From assembly GCA_003696075.1 (NCBI GenBank), contig RFHH01000181.1:1-34098 (forward strand): a DNA stretch of 34,098 nucleotides. The letters run 5' to 3'. Shown here piece after piece: positions 19,315 through 33,083 of the stretch. How positions within the stretch are numbered: the stretch's first letter is position 1; every line of letters starts with the position of its first letter. The position numbers and the translations under genes were made by a program. The notes beneath the pieces were generated by a model. It saw only the letters and a list, made by a program, of their open reading frames with translations. It was not told the origin of the DNA and made no database searches. The DNA is from Acidobacteriota bacterium. GTDB lineage: Bacteria; Acidobacteriota; Polarisedimenticolia; J045.

Positions 19315-20013
19315 TTGGCAGGGATGGATGACGCCCTGCCGGTGGCCTATCGGCCGATCCTCGTGACGGGGCTGCCCCGTTCCGGTACCTCCCTGATCGC
19401 CGGGTGCCTCGAGAGGTGCGGCGCGTTCGTGGGCCGCTGCGTCGAGCCGACCCCGGAGAATCCGAAGGGGTTCTTCGAGAACGCCTTCTTGCGTGACGAG
19501 ATCGACAAGAGGCTCCTCCGGGCCCTTCACGCCGACCCGCGCGGCGTCGACCCGCTCCCGGCGCTGGCCGAGGTCCCCGGGATCCGGGGCCTGGAGCGGG
19601 TCGTCCTCGAGGCGCTGAGGATCGAGGGGTACGACGGGCGGCGCCCCTGGTTGTTCAAGGACGCCAAGCTCACGCTCCTGTGGCCGGCGTGGGCGACGGC
19701 CTTCCCGGCAGCGCGGTGGGTCATCGTCCGGAGGCGCGAAGAGGACGTCGTTCGCTCCTGCCTGAGGACCGGTTTCATGCGGCGCCGCTCCGGCGATCCA
19801 CGCTTCTGGCGGCTCTTCTGCCGGGCCTACCTCGACCGGCTCGAGCGACTGAAGGCCAGCGGTGCCTGGTGGCGCGAGATCTGGCCCGGCGGCCTCGTCG
19901 GCGGTGACCTCGCCCCCATCGAGCGGCTCTGCGCGGACCTCGGACTCGAGCCGGCACGGGAGGCGATCCGGCGGTTCGTGGCCCCCGAGCACTGGCACGC
20001 TCCCGCCGGTTGA
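19315..20013 (+). CDS. Sulfotransferase-family protein
   Basis: 232 aa from TTG 19315, which has GGAG about eight to nine bases upstream; ATG 19324 is an alternative but has almost no room for an RBS. The PAPS 5'-phosphosulfate-binding loop is VTGLPRSGTSL (about 17-27). The FFENAFLRDEIDK region, the FKDAKLTLLWPAW motif and the 3'-phosphate-binding-like WVIVRRREEDVVRSC match prokaryotic sulfotransferases. It would transfer sulfate from PAPS to a hydroxyl or amine of a metabolite, lipid or glycan; the acceptor cannot be read from the sequence. No signal peptide. It follows the PNGase-F-like gene on the same strand at 70 bp, across hairpins that may separate the transcripts. Confidence 0.83.
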   Translation: MAGMDDALPVAYRPILVTGLPRSGTSLIAGCLERCGAFVGRCVEPTPENPKGFFENAFLRDEIDKRLLRALHADPRGVDPLPALAEVPGIRGLERVVLEALRIEGYDGRRPWLFKDAKLTLLWPAWATAFPAARWVIVRRREEDVVRSCLRTGFMRRRSGDPRFWRLFCRAYLDRLERLKASGAWWREIWPGGLVGGDLAPIERLCADLGLEPAREAIRRFVAPEHWHAPAG

Positions 20014-20507: not shown

Positions 20508-22115
20508 TTACCAGTCTCCCCAGACGTCGTCCTCGTCCTCGGTCATCTCGGAAGTCGGTTCGTCGGCGGGAAATCCACCGAGCTTGGATTCGTACCTCCG
20601 GCACAATTCCTCGAACGCCTGCACCGCGCGGCGCCGTTCCTCTTCGATGCGCCGGATCCGCTCGGCCTGCTCGCGGTCGCGGCACCGCATCTCCTCGAGC
20701 TCGCGCTCGAGCTGCTCCAACCGGCGGGCCGTCTGCTTCGCCTCCATCTCGTACAGCTTGTTCTGGGTTTCGACCGCCTTGAGGATCTCCTCGCGGTCGG
20801 CCTCCATGTGCCGCAGTTCGCGGATGCGGGCCGCCTCCGCCTGACGGAGCGTGCGGAGCTCCTCCTCCAGCTCGCGGATCTTCGCGTCCCGCTGGGCGAG
20901 TTGCCGCTCGGTCTCCCGCCGGAGCTTCTCGTACCGGGACTCGGCATCCAGCAACCTGTGAATCCGAGCGAATTCCGCTTCCGTCGGCATCGTCGACTCC
21001 TCGTTGACGCCGTGGCGCCGCCTCTCCGGGTGCAGGGCCCGCTGGCAAACTCCGCGCAGGAGGGCGTCGAACTCCGCGGCGTCGGGGGAGACCCGCCGCG
21101 CCGCCTCCGGTTCCACCACGCGGTGCACCGCCAGCGCGACGAGCGACTGGTTGAGCGTCTGCATGCCACGGCCGCCGTTCTCCCGGGCGATCGCCGGCAC
21201 GATCTCCTCGAGCCGGCCTCGGGCGACGAGGGCCGCGAGGTCGTCGGTCCGCCGCATCACCTCGACCGCCGCCACCATCCCGCTGCCATCCGCGCGCTCC
21301 ACCAGCCGCTGGTGGACCACCGCCTGGAGGACCTCGGCGACCCGTGCCCGCCGCCGCTCGTCCTCCCCCGCACCGGCCGCCGCGATCGCCTCCGAAAGCG
21401 ACGCAGCGCGCACGGTGGCGATCACGAGGCGATCGCCGGCGGCGTCCACGACGGCGGACCACGTGGGCTCGTCGCGGACCTCGTCGAGCGCGATCACGTC
21501 GGCCCCGTCCCTGATGGCGTTGCGCAGCGCCTCCTCGGCGGTGGCGACGTCGGCGCCGATCTCCTGCTGGATCACCGAACCGAGCCCGTCGGCGATGAGG
21601 TGCTCGATCGGATCCTCGATCGTGCACACCTGAACGAGCCGGCGGTCCACCACCTCCCGCAGCAACGCCGCGAGGGTGGACGATTTCCCGGAGGCGGGCG
21701 GTCCGGCGATCAGCACGAGGCCGTGCGCGAGGCCGGCCAACGGCCTGAGCAGGTCCGGCAGGTGCAGCGAATCGATCGTCGGCGGGGCCGCAGGAAGCCG
21801 CCGGAAGGAAGCGGCCAGCGTTCCCCGCTGGTGGAAGAGCGTCGCCCTGAACCGAGACACGCCGGGCAGCGAATAGCCGAACTCGACCCGCATCCGTTCG
21901 GCGAGGAGCCGCGCCCGCTTCGGTGTGAGGAGCCGGCGCAGGACGCGATCGAGTTCCGTGGGCGTGAGAGGTCGGCCGGGGAGGGGGATGAGCTTTCCCC
22001 GGAGCCGGAGCAGCGGAGGCCGCATCGGCTTGAGATGAAGGTCGGAGGCGTCCTGCTTGACCGCGACCCTCAGGAGGTGATCGAGCTCGAGCGTTCCTTC
22101 GGCGCCACCGCTCAC
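20508..22115 (-). CDS. Divergent PilT/PilU-like ATPase with C-terminal coiled coil
   Basis: 535 aa from GTG 22115, which begins at the first PilT-like residues (LELDHLLRVAVKQDASDLHL); a TTG at 22181 lacks an RBS. PilT-type features: N-terminal PAS-like domain; Walker A GPPASGKSS (K144); Asp box TIEDPIEHL; Walker-B-like VIALDEVRD. In retraction ATPases the sequence GTLHT carries the His box; here it is ATVRAAS (about 233-239), so the histidine is missing. The C-terminal 160 residues (376-535) are an almost continuous charged coiled coil, absent from PilT. No other pilus gene is in the window. It may be a motor adapted to another partner or a non-motor ATPase. An internal RBS-ATG could also make the coiled coil separately. 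Confidence 0.8.
   Translation of the reverse strand: MSGGAEGTLELDHLLRVAVKQDASDLHLKPMRPPLLRLRGKLIPLPGRPLTPTELDRVLRRLLTPKRARLLAERMRVEFGYSLPGVSRFRATLFHQRGTLAASFRRLPAAPPTIDSLHLPDLLRPLAGLAHGLVLIAGPPASGKSSTLAALLREVVDRRLVQVCTIEDPIEHLIADGLGSVIQQEIGADVATAEEALRNAIRDGADVIALDEVRDEPTWSAVVDAAGDRLVIATVRAASLSEAIAAAGAGEDERRRARVAEVLQAVVHQRLVERADGSGMVAAVEVMRRTDDLAALVARGRLEEIVPAIARENGGRGMQTLNQSLVALAVHRVVEPEAARRVSPDAAEFDALLRGVCQRALHPERRRHGVNEESTMPTEAEFARIHRLLDAESRYEKLRRETERQLAQRDAKIRELEEELRTLRQAEAARIRELRHMEADREEILKAVETQNKLYEMEAKQTARRLEQLERELEEMRCRDREQAERIRRIEEERRRAVQAFEELCRRYESKLGGFPADEPTSEMTEDEDDVWGDW
20991..21002 (-). promoter_or_regulatory. Internal in-frame ribosome-binding site inside the PilT-like gene
   Basis: On the minus strand GAGGAG (20997-21002) stands exactly six bases before an in-frame ATG (20988-20990), at the junction between the ATPase and the coiled coil. 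Initiation there would yield a free 160-residue coiled-coil protein starting MPTEAEFARIHRLL and ending at the same stop. The element is as good as the best RBSs in the window. Confidence 0.5.
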
Positions 22116-22253
22116 GGGCCGTCCCCGGACCGGTCCCCGGGCGGCGTGGCCGCCGCCGGGCAGACCGGTCGACGCTGCCAATCTAGGGTCTGGCCCCGGC
22201 GCCGGCCATGACGGAACGGCGGCGGCAAGGCCGGGACAAGCGGCACACCGGCG

Positions 22254-24836
22254 TCATCCGCGCCGGTGGTGCCACGCCATGGCGAGAAGGCGGCGAAGCG
22301 GGGTCGGCCGCACTCCGCGGGCCCGGTTCTCGCGCCCGATCTCGAAGGCGAGCCGCCACTGCTCGGAGAGCACCGCCAGGGCCTCGCGCAGGCCGAACCG
22401 CGGGTCGTACACGTGGGTCGCCTCGGAGGTGACTCCGTTCAGCTCGATGATCCGGATCCCCTCTCCGCGTGCCAGGTCGGACTCCGACGGTGCCCGGACG
22501 TCGTAGCGCCCGAAGTGGAACCCCGGTACCCGGCGGCTGATCTCGTCGATCCGGCGCGACAGCTCCGGAGTGGCCAGCTCCGCTGCATCCTCGAACACGG
22601 CCCCGCGGCAATGGGTGCCCAGCTCGACCAGGCGGACCCGCTCGCCCGCCGCCGGGACATCGTCCAGCCGGCCGGCGTTGGCGGCGAAGTAGACGGGTGC
22701 CAGGGCGACGGCGCGGGGATCGTCGAGGATCAGCCTCTCCAGCGTGCGGCGGCCGTCGCCCACGACCTCCGGCAGCCTCTTGCGCGTGACGGAGAAGAGG
22801 AACCCCCTCTCCTCTCCGGGGCGCCGGACGTAAAACAGCCCGAACTCGACCCCCGGCACGTACTCCTGCACGATCAGCGCCTCGCCGTCATCGAGGATGC
22901 GGCGGCGGGCCTGGTCGAGGTCGTGGCAGATCCGGACGCCGTATCCGCGCTCGCCGACATCCGGCTTGACGACCACCGGCGGTCCCCCGACGGCGGCGGC
23001 CGCCGCTTCCAGGGCGCGCAGCCGATCTTCTTTCCCGCCGGGCGGGATCAACCGGAAGCGCGCCACGGGAGCGCCGGCGCGTTCCAGGGCCGCGAGGATC
23101 CCGCTCTTGGACTCGCCGACGAATCCGCCCGCCTCGATGCACGGGTTGGCGGCGGTGAACACCGTGAGGCCGCCGTACCGCCAGGCGTGGTGGAGCAGGC
23201 GCGGGGCGAGAAGGCCGTAGATCACCCACGCCGGCCAGAACTCCCAGCGACGGAGGCGGAGAAACCACCCGGCGAGCCGGCGCCTGCCCCGGTGGGTCGC
23301 CGCGGCCGCCGCGAGCCTTCCGGCGAGGACGAGGGCGGCGACCGCCGCCACGATTCCGGCCAGCCCCACCCGGCGCGCCGCCAGCAGCGGTGCGAGGAAC
23401 GGCCGCCCGGCGAGCGCTGCCCCGCCCACCACGAGCGGCGTCCACAGCGCGGCCGCCGCGAAGAAGTAGAGAACGAACGCACCCGCCCCGGCCCCCGCGA
23501 CACCGGCGGAGAAGTAGACCGGCAGCCGGGCTCCGGGAAGGAACCGTGCCGCGAAGATCGCCGCGGGACCGCGGCGTTCGAACCAGGCCCGCGCCCGCTC
23601 CACCTGATCGGCTCGGATCAGCCAACGGAGCGGCGGCCGCCGGAGGGCGGGGCGCCCCAGCAGGCGCCCGGCCGCGAACAGTCCGAGGTCGCCGATCGCG
23701 ATTCCGGCGAAGCAGGCGAGCGTGCCGGGAAGGAATCGAATCCGTCCGGCCGCGATGAGCGCCCCCGTGGCGAGGCATGTCAGATCCTCGCTGGCCAGCG
23801 TCGCCGCCGCGATGAGCGCGGAAAGCACGACGAGCGCCAGGCCGGACGCCGGAGGGACCCGCGTCGGGTCGAAGGGACGCTCCGACATCGCCACGCGGTT
23901 CGGATCGGCCGTGGCGCGCACCGCGGCCAGACCGCCGTCCACCCGGTCGAGGAAGTCCTTCAGGACGGTGGCGATCCGGCCGGGGTGCCGGAAGACGGTG
24001 AAGTGATCCCCCTCGTCGAGCAGCAGCTCGCTCTGGGGCAGGAGCCGGTGATGCTCCAGCGCGGCGGCGGCGGGAACCAGGGGATCGGCCTTGCCGTGGA
24101 CGATCAGGGCGGGGCCGCTCCAGCGCCTCAGGGCCGCCCGGAGCGGCCGCTGGTCGCTCTCGTAGAAGGTGCGCGCGTAGGAGACGACCGGAAAGGTCCG
24201 ATCGAGCAGCCCCATGTGGGGGGTGAACGCGCGGAGCGACCACAAGGCGGCCAGTTGCAGCCCGTGGAGCGCGTGGTTCAGCCGCGCGTCCCCGAGGAGC
24301 TCGAGTTCCTGAACGCCCGTCGCCGAGAGCAGGGTGAGCGAGGCCACCCGCTCCGGAAAGCGGTCCGCCAGCAGGATCGCCACCGCGCCGCCGAGACTGT
24401 AGCCGACGGCGTGCACGCGCTCGATTCCGAGCGCATCCAGCCACGCGCCGAGGCGCAACGCATCCGCCTCGATCGACAGGTCGCAAGGCTCCCGCTCGCT
24501 CGCCCCGTGTCCCGGCAGGTCCGGCGCGAGCACACGCCGGGAGCCCGCCAGGCGCTCCGCGAGGCCGGAGAGCCCCCGGGCGTCGCCGGGGCTTCCGTGG
24601 ATCAGCAGGACGGGAGGGCCGGGGGGGCCGGGGCGGTCGGTCCAGGCGATGTGCGAAACGCCCGTGCACCCGGTTCCGGCCTCACGCTCGTCGATGACCG
24701 CGACGCGCTGCCCCGGCCTCGGCGGTCCCCAACCCGGCAGGAAGGCCCGGACCGCCGTCGACAGGGCGAGGGCCGCCAGGTAGGCGAGGGCGGCCGCGCG
24801 CCGGGCGCGCTTCCGGAAACGGGAGCGGCCGCTCAC
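22254..24836 (-). CDS. Three-part fusion: alpha/beta hydrolase - VTT (DedA) - ATP-grasp
   Basis: 860 aa. The GTG start at 24836 overlaps the TGA of the NRDE gene (GTGA), fixing the start. Residues about 10-35 are a basic plus hydrophobic segment (anchor). Residues 75-305 are an alpha/beta hydrolase: LLIHGSPGDARG, nucleophile GYSLGGA (S147), HGKADPLVP, and a histidine in EGDHFTVF. Residues about 325-540 are a multi-pass VTT/SNARE-associated (DedA) domain with AIFAARFLPGARLP and FSAGVAG, the family's Arg-Pro-Arg-Ala-Gly motif. Residues about 560-860 are an ATP-grasp ligase: NPCIEAGGFVGESKSG, VVVKPDVGERGYGVRI (about 613-628), IVQEYVPGVEFGLFY, and the metal-binding RIIELNGVTSE near 799. I do not know a characterised protein of this architecture. 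See findings. Confidence 0.9.
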   Translation of the reverse strand: MSGRSRFRKRARRAAALAYLAALALSTAVRAFLPGWGPPRPGQRVAVIDEREAGTGCTGVSHIAWTDRPGPPGPPVLLIHGSPGDARGLSGLAERLAGSRRVLAPDLPGHGASEREPCDLSIEADALRLGAWLDALGIERVHAVGYSLGGAVAILLADRFPERVASLTLLSATGVQELELLGDARLNHALHGLQLAALWSLRAFTPHMGLLDRTFPVVSYARTFYESDQRPLRAALRRWSGPALIVHGKADPLVPAAAALEHHRLLPQSELLLDEGDHFTVFRHPGRIATVLKDFLDRVDGGLAAVRATADPNRVAMSERPFDPTRVPPASGLALVVLSALIAAATLASEDLTCLATGALIAAGRIRFLPGTLACFAGIAIGDLGLFAAGRLLGRPALRRPPLRWLIRADQVERARAWFERRGPAAIFAARFLPGARLPVYFSAGVAGAGAGAFVLYFFAAAALWTPLVVGGAALAGRPFLAPLLAARRVGLAGIVAAVAALVLAGRLAAAAATHRGRRRLAGWFLRLRRWEFWPAWVIYGLLAPRLLHHAWRYGGLTVFTAANPCIEAGGFVGESKSGILAALERAGAPVARFRLIPPGGKEDRLRALEAAAAAVGGPPVVVKPDVGERGYGVRICHDLDQARRRILDDGEALIVQEYVPGVEFGLFYVRRPGEERGFLFSVTRKRLPEVVGDGRRTLERLILDDPRAVALAPVYFAANAGRLDDVPAAGERVRLVELGTHCRGAVFEDAAELATPELSRRIDEISRRVPGFHFGRYDVRAPSESDLARGEGIRIIELNGVTSEATHVYDPRFGLREALAVLSEQWRLAFEIGRENRARGVRPTPLRRLLAMAWHHRRG

Positions 24837-25582
24837 GCGCCGCGCGGGGAGGCCTGCGGGAGCCGCCGCAGGGGAAGGGTCCGGGGCGGGCCGAGCTCCG
24901 TGCGGCACGGGGGGCCCGGGGCGTACCACATCCGTGCCACGTCGCGCTCCACCGAGACGCGGGTCAGGCTGACCGTCCTGGCGTCCGGCCGGTGCATGCA
25001 GACCGAATAGGGGCCGATCTCCGGCTCGTGGCTCCGGTGGTACTCGAAGAGCCGGTTCGGATCGCGGCGGCCCGACGGGCCCAACCGCCGGAAGAGACGG
25101 CGCCGCGAGAGGGTCACCCCGGCCGGGTCGACGGACGAGGAGACCACCGGCTCGGCGTCCCAAGCGAGCGTGCTGCGGGCGACCCCGCGGCCGTCGTAGA
25201 GGACCATCAGCGGCGGGCTGCCGTGCTGGAAAAGGACGAGGCGGAAGGGACGGAACCGCCGGGCCACCCCTTCCGTGACCGCGCCGGCCGCTTCGGCGGC
25301 GGAGCGGCAGGCGGCCAGGGCGACGACGAGCCGGCCCCGGCTCTCCAAACCGCTCTCGACGGCACCCTCCGTCCCCTCGTAGTGGTTGAGCAGGCACAGG
25401 ACGAGGCCCGCCTCGTTGACGGCGATCCAGGTGCCGCCGCTCTCCCCGTCGATCGGCGCGAGGAACCGCAGCGGTCCGGGGTGGACGCTCGGCGGAAGCG
25501 CCGCCTTCCTGTCACGCCGCTCATCCCGATTGAAGAAGAGCTCGAAACCCTCGGGCCGGTCGACGAAGCTCAGCGTGCACAT
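24833..25582 (-). CDS. NRDE (TANGO2-like) family protein
   Basis: 249 aa. It begins MCTLSF, so methionine removal would expose C2 as an N-terminal nucleophile, and carries the family-defining NRDE within FFNRDERRDR (N18-E21), then GGTWIAVNEAGLVLCLLNHY. NRDE proteins are predicted Ntn-hydrolase folds; human TANGO2 is tied to lipid/CoA or heme metabolism, and bacterial members are mostly uncharacterised. Overlaps the fusion gene downstream by 4 bp and starts 6 bp after the DinB gene, so clearly in the operon. No signal peptide. Confidence 0.9.
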   Translation of the reverse strand: MCTLSFVDRPEGFELFFNRDERRDRKAALPPSVHPGPLRFLAPIDGESGGTWIAVNEAGLVLCLLNHYEGTEGAVESGLESRGRLVVALAACRSAAEAAGAVTEGVARRFRPFRLVLFQHGSPPLMVLYDGRGVARSTLAWDAEPVVSSSVDPAGVTLSRRRLFRRLGPSGRRDPNRLFEYHRSHEPEIGPYSVCMHRPDARTVSLTRVSVERDVARMWYAPGPPCRTELGPPRTLPLRRLPQASPRGA

Positions 25583-25588
25583 CGTCCG

Positions 25589-26101
25589 TCAACGCTCACT
25601 CCAGGACTCGAGCGTCGATGGGGCGACGCCGAAGGTCTCCGGGACGGCGCAGCCCCAGGAACGCAGGACGAGCGCGACGATGGCGAAGTGGTGCACCGTG
25701 TGCGACAGCAGGAATTGGAGCTCCCGTCCCACGCTCGACGGCTGCCAGGCTCGCTCCGGATCGGAGCCCGACTCGGCGCGAACGAGCAGCGGCGTCTCGG
25801 TGCCGATGTCCCGGAGTTCGCGCAGCGAGTGCACGGTGCGGCGGATCCGCGCCAGAGCGCGCTGCGGGTCGGTCTCCTCGGCGGCGTCCCGGCGCCGCCG
25901 GTCGTAGTCGACTCGCCGGTCACCGATCCCGGCGAAGAAGCGCTCGTAGAAATCGATGCCGTGGCGGAAGTGCGCCCCGACGGTGGCCCGCTGGCCAGGG
26001 ATGGGGCGCGAGTAGGTGGCGGCGTCGAGCGAGCGGATCAGCGCCTCCCCCTGCCTGAGCACCTCCACGTTGCGCCCGATCAGGCCGTTCCGGGAAGGCA
26101 T
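25589..26101 (-). CDS. DinB-fold protein
   Basis: 170 aa four-helix DinB/YfiT-like protein. Candidate metal-binding histidines: H44 and H47 in VGAHFRHGIDFYERF and H134, H137, H138 in LSHTVHHFAIVAL. DinB-fold proteins include metal-dependent thiol transferases (bacillithiol, mycothiol) and enzymes of unknown reaction. It overlaps the PlsC gene by 22 bp and is followed by NRDE after 6 bp. The placement inside an acyltransferase/ligase operon suggests it acts on an intermediate of that pathway, but nothing in the sequence says which. Confidence 0.88.
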   Translation of the reverse strand: MPSRNGLIGRNVEVLRQGEALIRSLDAATYSRPIPGQRATVGAHFRHGIDFYERFFAGIGDRRVDYDRRRRDAAEETDPQRALARIRRTVHSLRELRDIGTETPLLVRAESGSDPERAWQPSSVGRELQFLLSHTVHHFAIVALVLRSWGCAVPETFGVAPSTLESWSER

Positions 26102-26871
26102 CGCTCCTCACTCCTTTCCTCGCTCAGGCCGAGGGCCTCGCAGACATCGTCTCTCAGCTCCGAGGCCAGCTGTTTCCGGTCCGGGCCGGTGCGCGCGGGC
26201 CGGTAGCGGACGGCGGCGGTGAATCCCCGCAGTCCCAACAGCCTCCACAGGTGCGGGGCCATCACGGCGTCGCCCCACCAGCAGACGGCCTCTCCGGCGG
26301 GAGGGTCGCCAGGCGCCGTTTCGTACCGGATCGCGGCGGGCTGCACCGGAAGGCCGCGGCGGATCGCTGCGTCGAGCAGCGGGGAACGGAACGGCAGCAC
26401 CCGGTCCCCCGCGGTGCTGGTCCCCTCGGGGAAGAACGCCACCCTGAACCCGGCGTCCAGCACCGCTCCCATCTGCGCCAGAGCCCGCTTCAGATCGCTC
26501 ATCCGCGCGCGGTCGATGAAGATCGTTCCGGCCAGGCGCGTGATCGGCCCGAGGAGGGGCCACCGCGCCACCGGCGCCTTCGCGACGAAGATCGCCGGAG
26601 AGGTGGCCCCGAGGGCGATCACGTCCATGTACGAAAGGTGGTTCGCTACCAGGAGCACCGGCGGCGCCGCCGGGGAGCCGTCCGGTTCGATCCGCATCCC
26701 GGAGATCCGCGCCACCGCCCGGCACCATCGCCGAAACTGGTCCAGCCGCCGTCGCAACCTGTCCTCGTCGCGGCGGGCCGAGACGAGGCGCGCCGAGAGA
26801 ACCGCGGCATGGTAACCGGTCACCGCGGCGAGTGCGAGAATCCGCAGCAAGGCTCGGAGATGACCGCGCAT
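26080..26871 (-). CDS. PlsC-type 1-acyl-glycerol-3-phosphate / lyso-lipid O-acyltransferase
   Basis: 263 aa. Starts 8 bp after the stop of the OlsB-like gene; N-terminal membrane segment (ILALAAVTGYHAAVLSA). Acyltransferase block I is NHLSYMD (H78xxxxD83), block III FPEGTS (about 145-150) with downstream block IV-like VQPAAIRY. It would transfer an acyl chain to a lyso-lipid hydroxyl at the inner membrane. In ornithine-lipid synthesis OlsB makes the N-acyl product and OlsA, a PlsC-family enzyme, adds the second chain; the adjacent OlsB-like gene makes that role more likely than general phosphatidic acid synthesis. Confidence 0.9.
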   Translation of the reverse strand: MRGHLRALLRILALAAVTGYHAAVLSARLVSARRDEDRLRRRLDQFRRWCRAVARISGMRIEPDGSPAAPPVLLVANHLSYMDVIALGATSPAIFVAKAPVARWPLLGPITRLAGTIFIDRARMSDLKRALAQMGAVLDAGFRVAFFPEGTSTAGDRVLPFRSPLLDAAIRRGLPVQPAAIRYETAPGDPPAGEAVCWWGDAVMAPHLWRLLGLRGFTAAVRYRPARTGPDRKQLASELRDDVCEALGLSEERSEERCLPGTA

Positions 26872-26879
26872 CGCGTGGC

Positions 26880-27680
26880 TCACTCGAAGAAGCGCCGGAA
26901 GTCGCCGGAGGGCATCCGCGTCACGTCGAAGAGGACGAGGAAGTCGATCGTCTTGAACCGCCGGTCGATCGCCGGGAGGCTGCAGACTTTCGCGCCGTAC
27001 CTCAGGTAGACCCGGAACAGCGGCGGCAACTCGCACCGCTCCCCGCCGGCCGCGGACGGTCCATCGCATCCGAACCCCGGCCGCGGATGGACGAGGTACT
27101 CGGGATGCATATGGCCGCCCCGCCGCAGGTGGGCCAGCGCACGGGCACCGTCCGCCGGATCCTGGCTCGTCAGCGAGCAGCAGCCGAACAGGAAGCGCTT
27201 GCCGGACCGGCGCACGTAGCGGGCGAGGCCGCGCCACAGCAGGAACAGGACCTGGTGATTCCGGTGCTCGCGCGCCACGCAGGCGCGGCTCAGCTCGATC
27301 GCGTCCTCGAGGAGCGCCGCCGGAAATCCGGACAGATCGAACTCGGAAGCGGAGTAGAAGCCGCGATGCCGCGCCGCCATCGCGCTCGTCTGCAGGCGGT
27401 AGGTGCCGGCCAGCGCTCCGGTCCTCCGGTCCTCGACCATGAGGTGATGGCATCCGGGATCGTACTCGTCCAGATCGCGCCCGGTGGCCCAGGACTCGTC
27501 GAGACCCTCTCCCAGCTCCAGGTTGAACACGGCGAACCGCAGCCGGGCCACCCGGTCGAGGTCGGCGGGGGTCCGCGCGAAGCGAACCTCGAACCGCGGG
27601 TGCGACCGGTCGGGTTCGGGAAGCAGCTCCGGGAAGGCCGGGTAGTCGGTCCGGGCCGCCGTTCCAGTTTCGCTCTCCAT
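26880..27680 (-). CDS. OlsB/hemolysin-like GNAT N-acyltransferase
   Basis: 266 aa. First gene of the operon; ATG with GGAGG four to five bases upstream. Matches the OlsB/'putative hemolysin' GNAT group: LRFAVFNLELGEGL, HHLMVEDRRTGALAGTYRLQ, EFDLSGFPAALLEDAIELSRACV, LLWRGLARY, FGCCSLTSQDPA and the C-terminal YLRYGAKVCSLPAIDRRFKT followed by IDFLVLFDV. OlsB transfers a 3-hydroxyacyl chain from ACP to the alpha-amino group of ornithine; relatives make glycine, lysine or glutamine lipids. The amino-acid acceptor here cannot be inferred. A -10-like GATAAT lies 24 bp upstream of the ATG. Confidence 0.9.
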   Translation of the reverse strand: MESETGTAARTDYPAFPELLPEPDRSHPRFEVRFARTPADLDRVARLRFAVFNLELGEGLDESWATGRDLDEYDPGCHHLMVEDRRTGALAGTYRLQTSAMAARHRGFYSASEFDLSGFPAALLEDAIELSRACVAREHRNHQVLFLLWRGLARYVRRSGKRFLFGCCSLTSQDPADGARALAHLRRGGHMHPEYLVHPRPGFGCDGPSAAGGERCELPPLFRVYLRYGAKVCSLPAIDRRFKTIDFLVLFDVTRMPSGDFRRFFE

Positions 27681-29980: not shown

Positions 29981-31915
29981 TCAGCGCAGAGCGTCGATCG
30001 CCTCGGGGTTGGCCACCGAGGAGAGATCGCCCGGAGGCTGGCCCATCAGGACCCGCCGGATGACACCCCGGACGATCTTGCCCGACCGGGTGACCGGGAG
30101 CGCGGAGACCCAGCGCACCGCCGCCGGGCGCATGGCGGGCCCCATCTTCTCCGCGATGTGCGCCGCGACCTCCCGGCCGAGCTCGTCGCTCGGCGTGACG
30201 CCGGGGGCGGGGACCGCCAGCAGCTCCAGACGCGTCCCCTTGATCTCGTCCGGCAGGCCGACCGCAGCGGCCTCGCGCACCGCCGGGTGGTCCACGGCGG
30301 CGGCCTCGACCTCGGCGGGACCGATTCGCTTGCCGGCGATCTTCAGGGTGTCGTCGGCGCGCCCGGTCAGGAACCAGAAGCCGTCCTCGTCGCAAAGGGC
30401 CCAGTCCCCGTGGAACCAGACGCTCTCCCCGAACCGCTCGAAGTAGGTCTTCAGGTACCGTTCCGGGTCGTTGAGGAAGCCGCGCGTCATATTGGGAGCG
30501 GCGTTCTTGCAGACCAGGTAACCGACCTCCCCGCGCACGCTTCGTCCCTCCTCGTCGAAGACATCCACGTCCATGCCGAGGGCGGGCCCCTGGAGAGTCG
30601 CCGGTTTGAGCGGCGCCACCGGCAGAGGGGCGAGGAGGCATCCCATCAGCTCCGTGCCTCCCGAGATGTTGATGATCGGACAGCGGGAGCCGCCGACGTT
30701 CTCGAAGTACCACATGTACGACGCCGCGTCCCACGGTTCCCCCGTGGAGCCGAGCACCCGGAGGCTCGACAGGTCGTGTGCCTGGAGCGGCTCGGTCCCG
30801 AAGCCGGCGAGGAGGCGGACGGCCGTGGGCGCGACCGCGAGGTGGGTGATGCGGTGCCGCTCCACCATGGCCCACAGCCGATCCGGCCCCGGATGGGTCG
30901 GCATGCCGTCGAGCAGCACGACCGTCCCCCCGTGGAACAGGGCGCCCAGGATCTCCCACGGTCCCATCATCCAGCCGATGTCGGTCAGCCAGAAGAGCCG
31001 TTCGCCGGGGCGGAGGTCCATGTGGTAGCCGACCTCCTTGGCGGTGACGATCTGGACCCCCGCGTGCGTGTGCACCGCACCTTTCGGCTTGCCCGTCGTT
31101 CCGGATGTGTAGAGAATGAGCGAACGCGCCGACGCGTCGAGTTCCTCCGTGGCCCACTCGTCCTGTGCCGCCTCTTCCAGTTCGTGCCACCACAGGTCGC
31201 GCTCGCTGTTCCACGGGATCTCGTCGCCGCTGTGGCGGAGAACGACCACCTGGTAGACCGACTCCGCCAGGTCGGCGCCGGCATCGGCGGTCGGCTTCAA
31301 CGCGATCTTCTTCCCTTTTCGCCGGGTTCCGTCCGCCGTCAGGAGCACCCCAGCGCCCGCGTCCCGCAGCCGGGCCGCCAGCGCCTCCGGCCCGAAGCCG
31401 GCGAAGACAGGGACGGGCACGGCGCCGATCTTGAGGCAGGCGAGAAGGGCGACCACGACGTCGGCGGACATCGGCAGGTAGAAGCCGACCGCATCACCGG
31501 CACCAAGGCCGAGGCCGGCGAGCGCGGCGGAAAGGCGGGAAACGCGGACGGCGAGCTGTTCGTAGGTCAGCGTGACGACGTTCTCATCGTCGTCTTCCGC
31601 GATCACGGCCGTGTGTGCACCTCGGCCGTCCCGCAGGTGCCGGTCGAGGCAGTTGTGCACGATGTTGATCCGGCCGCCGATGAACCACTCGGTCCAGGGG
31701 AGACCGCGGGAGTCGTCATAGAGCTGCCGGTAGTCTTCGAACCACTCGATGCCCAGGTCGTCGATGATCGCCGGGTAGAACCACTCCGGCTCGGCGGCGG
31801 CGCGGCGCCGCAGCTCGGCGGCGTCGGCGATGCCGTGCCGGCGCATGAAGCGGGCTACGTGGGAGTTCTCGAGGTCGTCCGGGCGGGGCCGCCAGATGAT
31901 CTCGCCTGTACCCAT
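29981..31915 (-). CDS. AMP-forming acyl-CoA synthetase (acetyl-/acetoacetyl-CoA synthetase-like)
   Basis: 644 aa; ATG with GAGGAGG upstream. ANL superfamily: an ACS-type N-terminal extension (PWTEWFIGGRINIVHNCLDRH), P-loop YTSGTTGKPKG (about 268-278), GSTGEPWD, the SGGTELMGC segment, the hinge GRADDTLKIAGKRIGP and the catalytic lysine K613 in TRSGKIVRG. It activates a carboxylate to its CoA thioester with ATP to AMP. It sits 10 bp downstream of homogentisate dioxygenase in the same transcript; since that pathway ends in fumarate plus acetoacetate, acetoacetate is an attractive substrate, but the sequence does not prove it and acetate, propionate or an aryl acid remain possible. Confidence 0.9.
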   Translation of the reverse strand: MGTGEIIWRPRPDDLENSHVARFMRRHGIADAAELRRRAAAEPEWFYPAIIDDLGIEWFEDYRQLYDDSRGLPWTEWFIGGRINIVHNCLDRHLRDGRGAHTAVIAEDDDENVVTLTYEQLAVRVSRLSAALAGLGLGAGDAVGFYLPMSADVVVALLACLKIGAVPVPVFAGFGPEALAARLRDAGAGVLLTADGTRRKGKKIALKPTADAGADLAESVYQVVVLRHSGDEIPWNSERDLWWHELEEAAQDEWATEELDASARSLILYTSGTTGKPKGAVHTHAGVQIVTAKEVGYHMDLRPGERLFWLTDIGWMMGPWEILGALFHGGTVVLLDGMPTHPGPDRLWAMVERHRITHLAVAPTAVRLLAGFGTEPLQAHDLSSLRVLGSTGEPWDAASYMWYFENVGGSRCPIINISGGTELMGCLLAPLPVAPLKPATLQGPALGMDVDVFDEEGRSVRGEVGYLVCKNAAPNMTRGFLNDPERYLKTYFERFGESVWFHGDWALCDEDGFWFLTGRADDTLKIAGKRIGPAEVEAAAVDHPAVREAAAVGLPDEIKGTRLELLAVPAPGVTPSDELGREVAAHIAEKMGPAMRPAAVRWVSALPVTRSGKIVRGVIRRVLMGQPPGDLSSVANPEAIDALR

Positions 31916-31925
31916 CGCTGCCTCC

Positions 31926-33083
31926 TCAGGACCAGCTCAGGTGATAGTCAGGATCCTCGATCCCGAGCGCGTGTTTCGTGGGGACCAGCGGCTTGAAGGT
32001 GTCGACCATGACCGCGAGCTCCTGCGTCCTTTGCGTGCCCACCGACGCCTCGTAGGTTCCGGGGTGCGGGCCGTGCGGAACCCCCGCCGGGTGCAACGAG
32101 ATCGATCCCGGCGCGATGCCCCTGCGGCTGGTGAAGTTTCCCTCGACGTAGTAGATCATCTCGTCGCAATCCACGGAGCTGTGCGGATACGGGCAGGGCA
32201 CCGCTTTCTCGTGGAAATCCACCACCCGGGGGACGAAGGAGCAGACGATGAAACCGCCTCCAGCGAAGGTGAGGTGGATCGTCGGGGGGAGGTGGACGAG
32301 GCCGGTCTTCGGCTGGAAGGCCCGGATCGGGAAGGCGAACGGCCAGACCTGGCCGTCCCAGCCGATCACGTCGAACGGATCGTGTGTGAGTTCATGAGCG
32401 GTCAGCGCGTCGCCCCGCTTGACAACGAGGCGCCGCGGCGCGCCGAGCGAGGCGGGGCCGCGATCGGGCCACTCGGGGGGCCGGAAGTCCCGGTGCGAGT
32501 ACGGTGCATCCATGCGGAGCTGGCCGCCGGCGTTGCGGAACTGGCGGGGCACATCGACATAGCTCCGCCCTTCGAGCACCAAGAGTGTGAGCACTCCGTC
32601 CGGCAACCATCGGTGCGGCAGCGCGCGTGGAACGAAAACGTAGTCGTGCGTTTCCACCCGGAGGGAGCCGAGCGGCGTGTCCAGTCGGCCGCCGCCCTCC
32701 ACCACGAAATGCAATTCATCCCCGTCGGCGTTGGCGCAAAGCTCCGGATCGGCGTCCGCCGCCCGTGCCATCCAGACGCCGAGATCGGAATTCGCGAGCA
32801 GCAGCTTCCGCCCGCGAAACGGCGCTCCTCCCCGAGGCAGCCGCGGCGTCAGAAAATGCCGGCGCCGCGTCCGGTCACCCGCCTCCGGCTCGGCGACCCC
32901 GGGATGAGGTCCGAGCTCCTCTCGCGAGCCGATCCAGTGGGGCGGCCGCCGGTGGTACAGGATCGTGTAGAGCCCGTCGAATCCCTGACGGGTCAGGCAG
33001 TGCTCGAAGGCCATGGAGCCCTCGGGCCGGAAGGCGGTGTGCGGCTTGTCGGGAACGTCTCCGCGCTGAAGGCGGTGGATCAT
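31926..33083 (-). CDS. hmgA: Homogentisate 1,2-dioxygenase
   Basis: 385 aa, the shorter bacterial form. Cupin-fold Fe(II) dioxygenase that opens the homogentisate ring to maleylacetoacetate. Evidence: N-terminal LQRGDVPDKPHTAF and GFDGLYTILYH; central GDELHFVVEGGG cupin motif; HDPFDVIGWDG; and the C-terminal iron site in YPHSSVDCDEMIYYVEGNF (H301, E308) with HPAGVPHGPHPG (H337). ATG with GGAG seven bases upstream. It uses the product of HPPD (1430-2599) as substrate. It heads, or follows the reductase gene in, a transcript with the acyl-CoA synthetase. Confidence 0.94.
   Translation of the reverse strand: MIHRLQRGDVPDKPHTAFRPEGSMAFEHCLTRQGFDGLYTILYHRRPPHWIGSREELGPHPGVAEPEAGDRTRRRHFLTPRLPRGGAPFRGRKLLLANSDLGVWMARAADADPELCANADGDELHFVVEGGGRLDTPLGSLRVETHDYVFVPRALPHRWLPDGVLTLLVLEGRSYVDVPRQFRNAGGQLRMDAPYSHRDFRPPEWPDRGPASLGAPRRLVVKRGDALTAHELTHDPFDVIGWDGQVWPFAFPIRAFQPKTGLVHLPPTIHLTFAGGGFIVCSFVPRVVDFHEKAVPCPYPHSSVDCDEMIYYVEGNFTSRRGIAPGSISLHPAGVPHGPHPGTYEASVGTQRTQELAVMVDTFKPLVPTKHALGIEDPDYHLSWS

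Follow-up and report, generated by a model that had tools for sequence, protein, structure and literature searches.

The window analysed here, which is the whole 34,098-nucleotide stretch of an Acidobacteriota contig, carries on its minus strand a run of five genes that overlap or lie no more than 9 nt apart. In operon order, these are an OlsB-like amino-acid N-acyltransferase of the GNAT type (26880..27680, Pfam PF13444), an OlsA-like lyso-aminolipid O-acyltransferase with the PlsC fold (26080..26871, Pfam Acyltransferase), a DinB-superfamily gene (25589..26101, Pfam DinB_2), a divergent TANGO2-like gene with an N-terminal Cys and an NRDE motif (24833..25582, Pfam TANGO2, PF05742) and a tri-domain gene (22254..24836). 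Profiles built here find the same gene order recurring in many phyla; order and spacing show these five genes to be one tight conserved operon. The last gene encodes 860 aa made up of a membrane anchor, an alpha/beta-hydrolase, a VTT/DedA domain and an ATP-grasp domain. It runs from a GTG start at 24836-24834 to a stop at 22256-22254, with 860 codons and no internal stop, and the plus-strand frame over 22254-24836 is meaningless. In a GTGA, the start overlaps the TGA that ends the TANGO2-like gene upstream, and this overlap, on which the original prediction had fixed the start, is real.

The protein opens with a basic stretch and an N-terminal transmembrane anchor (24741..24821, minus strand, residues 6-32), which is a helix in the model and is predicted to lie with its N-terminus inside. 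Next comes the alpha/beta-hydrolase (23904..24710, minus strand, residues about 43-311), placed by Pfam, profile and Foldseek and predicted to be periplasmic. The Abhydrolase_1 match at residues 74-289 is above the Pfam cut-off (E 4.7e-28, 98.9 bits), and the S147/D251/H278 triad is conserved in the aligned full-length homologues, Ser and His being lost in one of them only (L031). Profile match and Ser-Asp-His triad together make the domain a member of the alpha/beta-hydrolase superfamily. The membrane phospholipase A 6i8w, which we take to be PlaF of Pseudomonas, gives a profile match to the hydrolase over nearly the full length, and the Foldseek neighbours are esterases, ABHD6 and again 6i8w. 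Both 6i8w and ABHD6 carry an N-terminal membrane helix before a hydrolase fold of the same lipase type as that of the tri-domain protein, but they are single-enzyme proteins, whereas the protein described here is a fusion. The 6i8w-like match suits a putative acyl-hydrolase working on membrane lipids.

The VTT/DedA domain and the transmembrane helix that follows it occupy 23298..23843 (minus strand, residues about 332-513), as delimited by Pfam and the model helices. VTT (PF09335) matches residues 359-471 with an E value of 4.9e-13 (50.1 bits against a gathering score of 33.9). The DedA plan consists of a re-entrant pair, a TM helix, a second re-entrant pair and a second TM helix (PMC7818093), and the model helices fit this plan with one extra TM ahead of the ligase. 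The two re-entrant helix pairs present E350/D351 and R431/R437 at their tips, and these acidic and arginine residues, characteristic of DedA/VTT proteins, are invariant in 27 sequences. The arrangement recalls E39/D51 and R130/R136 of YqjA, with acidic residues at the tip and an R-x5-R pair, although a counterpart of D51 is tentative. The VTT domain with its two re-entrant pairs is thus shared with the transporters UptA, YqjA and TMEM41B; unlike in these, soluble enzymes are fused on both sides. In NCBIfam the nearest named family is UptA, whose equivalog cut-off is far from reached (48.1 versus 250 bits). The genome of the window has one other VTT gene besides the tri-domain gene.

The C-terminal part (22257..23291, minus strand, residues 516-860, predicted cytosolic) begins with an amphipathic WEFWP segment and is an ATP-grasp domain. 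In Pfam the window protein stays under the gathering score for ATP-grasp (best about 13 bits, E 0.05), and the domain searched alone finds no family there at E 0.01. The assignment comes instead from NCBIfam, where this part matches cyanophycin synthetase (E 9e-9), from the family profile, which matches GshF- and CphA-type PDB structures (E 1.5e-9 to 1.4e-8), and from the structural model. As Foldseek with the full-length AlphaFold model (pLDDT 89.5, pTM 0.64) gave hydrolase hits only among those listed, the ATP-grasp part was modelled separately; this model (pLDDT 94.2, pTM 0.91) has CphA, GshF and Ddl as its top PDB neighbours. K624/D779/E798/N800 are invariant in the aligned full-length homologues, so that both the fold and the ATP/Mg residues of the superfamily are present. 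Fold and ATP/metal residues are common to cyanophycin synthetase, glutathione synthetase and RimK; unlike these enzymes, the window's domain has the extra WEFWP segment and a membrane fusion, and reaches no Pfam model. Model and alignment show a domain with the fold and the residues of a carboxylate-amine ligase, from which its activity is predicted. The presence of all three modules with their key motifs in one polypeptide, as first proposed, is therefore borne out by the Pfam hits for two of them, by the ATP-grasp model for the third and by the conserved catalytic residues.

Could this architecture be a local oddity? A genome scan returned 33 related loci, 17 of which hold the whole architecture in one frame, in records labelled Acidobacteriota/Thermoanaerobaculia, Rhodothermales, Gemmatimonadota, Planctomycetota and Krumholzibacteriota. 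Full-length homologues, 41-56% identical, are found in Acidobacteriota, Bacteroidota/Rhodothermota, Gemmatimonadota, Planctomycetota and Krumholzibacteriota. Of 297 genomes from the phylum of the window, at least 22 contain a match of near full length, and in about 15 others the match lacks the hydrolase. Since the 17 full-length homologues, from at least five phyla, keep three modules in a single frame, and given these same-phylum matches, chance or a frameshift as the source of the architecture is excluded, and the continuous frame that had been read through the modules holds. The literature searched yielded nothing relevant describing the architecture, in agreement with its earlier designation as uncharacterised. 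The tri-domain protein is, by its sequence, a conserved and undescribed combination of known parts; it offers a strong clue to a pathway, its activity being predicted. The 'synthesis and release chemistry' once attributed to it would correspond to ligase and hydrolase activities, which we infer from folds and conserved residues.

Shorter relatives, with VTT and ATP-grasp or with ATP-grasp alone, are related branches of the same family. In the phylum to which Rhodothermales belongs, Bacteroidota in GTDB, 39 of 198 genomes have the ligase; in 18 the frame is 812-907 aa long, and in the other 21 the protein has about 350 aa. Twelve of the 18 long-frame genes were fetched (L076-L087), and each joins the three modules in a single frame; the other six, among them that of G297, the genome of the Rhodothermales locus L008 itself, are classed as tri-domain from the length of their frames. 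In a midpoint-rooted maximum-likelihood tree of 70 ligase domains, eight stand-alone Bacteroidota ligases split from all others, several VTT fusions lie outside and the tri-domain form is nested. The hydrolase has apparently been lost or gained several times across this tree. In a Gemmataceae locus (L019) it is a separate neighbouring gene, and in another locus (L025) the VTT and ligase parts are encoded by two genes of the same neighbourhood; that these split genes stay neighbours supports a functional tie between the modules. One Krumholzibacteriota protein (L031:9524-12085) retains the hydrolase domain without its nucleophile Ser and its catalytic His. The hydrolase cannot be essential to the work of the ligase, as it is absent from many relatives and looks dead in this protein. 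In one MAG, the ATP-grasp frame is split over two overlapping frames (L030:9734-10806), by a frameshift or an assembly error.

The original prediction had left open whether the two enzymes face opposite sides of the membrane or the same side. The ligase needs ATP and should thus be cytosolic, and counting the helices back from it puts the hydrolase outside. Predicted cytosolic loops contain 2.1-2.7 K/R per 10 aa versus 0.9-1.4 in predicted outside loops, the bias has the same direction in 18 of 18 homologues, and residues 1-14 are strongly basic across homologues (3.1 K/R per 10 aa). A periplasmic hydrolase and a cytosolic ligase are thus a well-supported topology, predicted from sequences and model, and of the two arrangements envisaged the opposite-face one is favoured by this positive-inside analysis. 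The same-face arrangement would have the N-terminal helix peripheral or inverted and both enzymes in the cytosol, with substrates channelled between hydrolase and ligase on the inner leaflet. It would let the two enzymes share a substrate, and the full-length model, at a pTM of 0.64, leaves the relative placement of the domains unfixed. Nevertheless, the basic N-terminus, the hydrophobic first helix and the loop bias of all 18 sequences fit a hydrolase outside, and we consider a common face very unlikely.

Amino-acid lipids are widespread phosphorus-free membrane lipids. Ornithine-lipid synthesis by OlsBA uses a GNAT and a PlsC-like enzyme, a pair mirrored by adjacent genes in the operon, but the OlsBA pathway, in those parts of its literature that were available, has no ATP-grasp, VTT, DinB or TANGO2 partner. 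For both acyltransferases the best NCBIfam family is the expected one and is matched over nearly the full length, at 132.8 bits against an equivalog cut-off of 320 for OlsB and at 138.7 bits against 300 for OlsA. As these scores are far below the cut-offs, the amino acid need not be ornithine. The OlsB-like gene is the single copy of PF13444 in the window's genome. The original reading dealt with the tri-domain gene by itself; its modules stood, but it made no link to the OlsB/OlsA, DinB and TANGO2 operon, which is the strongest clue to function. Near 42 tri-domain loci, the OlsB-like GNAT is found at 37, the OlsA-like gene at 34, DinB at 30 and TANGO2 at 13. Around VTT-ATP-grasp loci the counts are 15/16 for DinB and 14/16 for TANGO2, and around lone ligases 11/12 and 7/12. 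A mutual replacement of TANGO2 and the fused hydrolase (13/42 versus 14/16, p 2e-4) was rejected, as only two supported independent pairs are left once kinship is considered. In about a quarter of loci the operon is preceded by a ferric-reductase-like/Rieske membrane fusion (such as L011:3867-6427), a GEIVDSKCFLGVMKPG-motif protein that matches neither Pfam nor NCBIfam, and a membrane protein of 91 aa.

We propose, giving it about an even chance (a probability of roughly 0.5), that the products of the operon synthesise an acyloxyacyl amino-acid lipid of the ornithine-lipid type, modify it and export it. The proposal is based on the tightness of the operon, the OlsB and OlsA best matches, the recurrent gene order, the sole PF13444 copy and the co-occurrence described below, as well as on the topology, the ATP-grasp fold and the 6i8w-like hydrolase. 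The OlsB-like enzyme would N-acylate an amino acid and the OlsA-like enzyme would add the second acyl chain. The ATP-grasp ligase would then, in the cytosol, attach a further unit, an amino compound or an acid, to the head group through an amide, giving a product similar to dipeptide or taurine-ornithine lipids. The fused VTT domain would carry this product to the outer leaflet, where the membrane-anchored periplasmic hydrolase could deacylate, re-acylate or cleave it, and DinB and TANGO2 may act on the same lipid or on its head group. Two-unit aminolipids do exist, either serine-glycine (PMC12746155) or taurine-ornithine. In its fullest form, the operon would be a transmembrane assembly line for a new class of such lipids, of dipeptide or taurine type, with ligation in the cytosol, flipping and remodelling outside all done by one polypeptide, DinB and the TANGO2-like protein being further enzymes of the pathway; this extension is tentative, and if true it would give bacterial TANGO2-like proteins a role on lipid amides.

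The DinB protein keeps a His cluster (H45, H48, H135, H138 and H139 in aligned numbering) over 55 operon homologues. The TANGO2-like protein scores 43.7 bits against a cut-off of 22.6, and the N-terminal Cys and N-R-D-E are found in 96% of 31 operon homologues, so that PF05742, Cys and NRDE coincide as in the family. The operon proteins form a low-scoring, divergent branch; many Bacteroidota genomes encode, elsewhere, a TANGO2 of the canonical kind with a high score. The fold of human TANGO2 is of the cysteine Ntn-hydrolase type, as in N-acyl-amide hydrolases (PMC13044924), and a function of TANGO2/HtpA in heme trafficking is disputed in the literature (PMC10470608, PMC12782551). From this fold and from the retention of Cys and NRDE in the operon, an amide-hydrolase or transfer step by the TANGO2-like protein is conceivable. 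The same observations, together with the second hydrolase fused to the ligase, would be in line with salvage or turnover, in which hydrolase and TANGO2-like protein degrade aminolipids or N-acyl amino acids, VTT imports the products and the ligase re-uses or detoxifies them. Against this, a biosynthetic OlsB/OlsA pair sits in the same operon, and ligase and DinB persist where the hydrolase or TANGO2 is absent; salvage thus seems unlikely. A TANGO2-like domain shares one frame with VTT-ATP-grasp in Gemmata sp. IIL30 (L022:9221-11554, 778 aa); this is the only such fusion seen and may result from a lost stop or a sequencing error. As a general feature the fusion was dismissed: an alignment spanning it was obtained for one of 23 planctomycete matches, the query genome itself.

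If the ligase works on aminolipids, as our preferred reading has it, the genomes that carry it are expected to have a gene for amino-acid N-acylation. Two types were considered, PF13444 and GH3; in Singulisphaera N-acyl-ornithine is the product of a GH3-type enzyme, OlsH, of the proven OlsH/OlsI route to ornithine lipids (PMC12493201). Each of the 18 Bacteroidota genomes with a gene counted as tri-domain carries PF13444 and lacks a strong GH3, whereas 21 of 21 stand-alone-ligase genomes have a strong GH3 hit, nine of them without PF13444; 'strong' means above a 150-bit line drawn after the result was seen. Over the 198 Bacteroidota genomes, the association of the ligase with either enzyme has a Fisher p of 4e-16, uncorrected for kinship. 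Four planctomycetes (G302, G303, G305 and G306) have the ligase and strong GH3 genes without PF13444, and in three of them an alpha/beta-hydrolase gene adjoins GH3, as in olsH/olsI. Neither enzyme was found in three ligase-bearing genomes (G033, G231 and G237). GH3 enzymes need not make aminolipids, which counts against this pathway test; indeed, for GH3 of the CFB group the authors doubted an ornithine product and considered other N-acyl amino acids possible (PMC12493201). Taken together, the co-occurrence supports a ligase that would belong to N-acyl-amino-acid lipid metabolism. OlsH/OlsI resembles the operon in using an alpha/beta-hydrolase-fold protein in aminolipid synthesis, and in the presence of GH3 in OlsB-less ligase-bearing planctomycetes, but OlsH is a GH3 enzyme and not an ATP-grasp one. 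We rejected an OlsI-type O-acyltransferase function for the fused hydrolase, as its profile gives no hit at E 10 on the OlsI-like neighbours of GH3, so called by position and motif alone.

Alternatively, the substrate of the ligase could be a different envelope molecule, such as a precursor of peptidoglycan or one linked to undecaprenyl phosphate, with VTT returning or flipping the carrier like UptA, the hydrolase trimming and the aminolipid genes merely co-regulated. UptA, the undecaprenyl phosphate transporter, is indeed the nearest named VTT family (48 bits), D-Ala-D-Ala ligases are among the structural neighbours of the ligase, and stand-alone ligases adjoin DinB/TANGO2 without OlsB or OlsA. 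The UptA score is nevertheless far below the cut-off of 250, the genes tightly linked over many phyla are of OlsB/OlsA type, and presence of the ligase tracks aminolipid-type N-acylating enzymes; we thus hold this explanation to be quite unlikely. On the aminolipid reading, the conserved multi-phylum operon suggests that amino-acid lipids are modified and moved in a way not described so far. It offers a candidate aminolipid ligase, a fused candidate transporter, where the literature searched revealed no dedicated aminolipid transporter, and a linked hydrolase; DinB and TANGO2-like proteins are tied to lipid metabolism by the conserved gene order and the one Gemmata in-frame fusion.

The serine-glycine dipeptide lipids (doreamides, lipid 654) contain an N-acyl amino acid to which a ligase, one still to be identified in 2025, joins a further amino acid (PMC12746155). 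The missing serine ligase of the Bacteroides lipids is probably not the ligase studied here, which is apparently absent from the GlsB-like genomes of our sample, GlsB-like being judged by frame length and score. Elsewhere in the window, 29981-31915 encodes an acetoacetyl-CoA synthetase-like AMP-binding enzyme and, by eye, 1430-2599 resembles 4-hydroxyphenylpyruvate dioxygenase and 31926-33083 homogentisate dioxygenase; the first of these and its dioxygenase-like neighbours are possible tyrosine breakdown genes. Directly downstream of the operon and on the same strand, 20508-22181 encodes a protein with a PilT-like T2SS/T4P ATPase domain and, after it, a long C-terminal region resembling a coiled coil, and 19315-20013 encodes a small protein of the sulfotransferase family.
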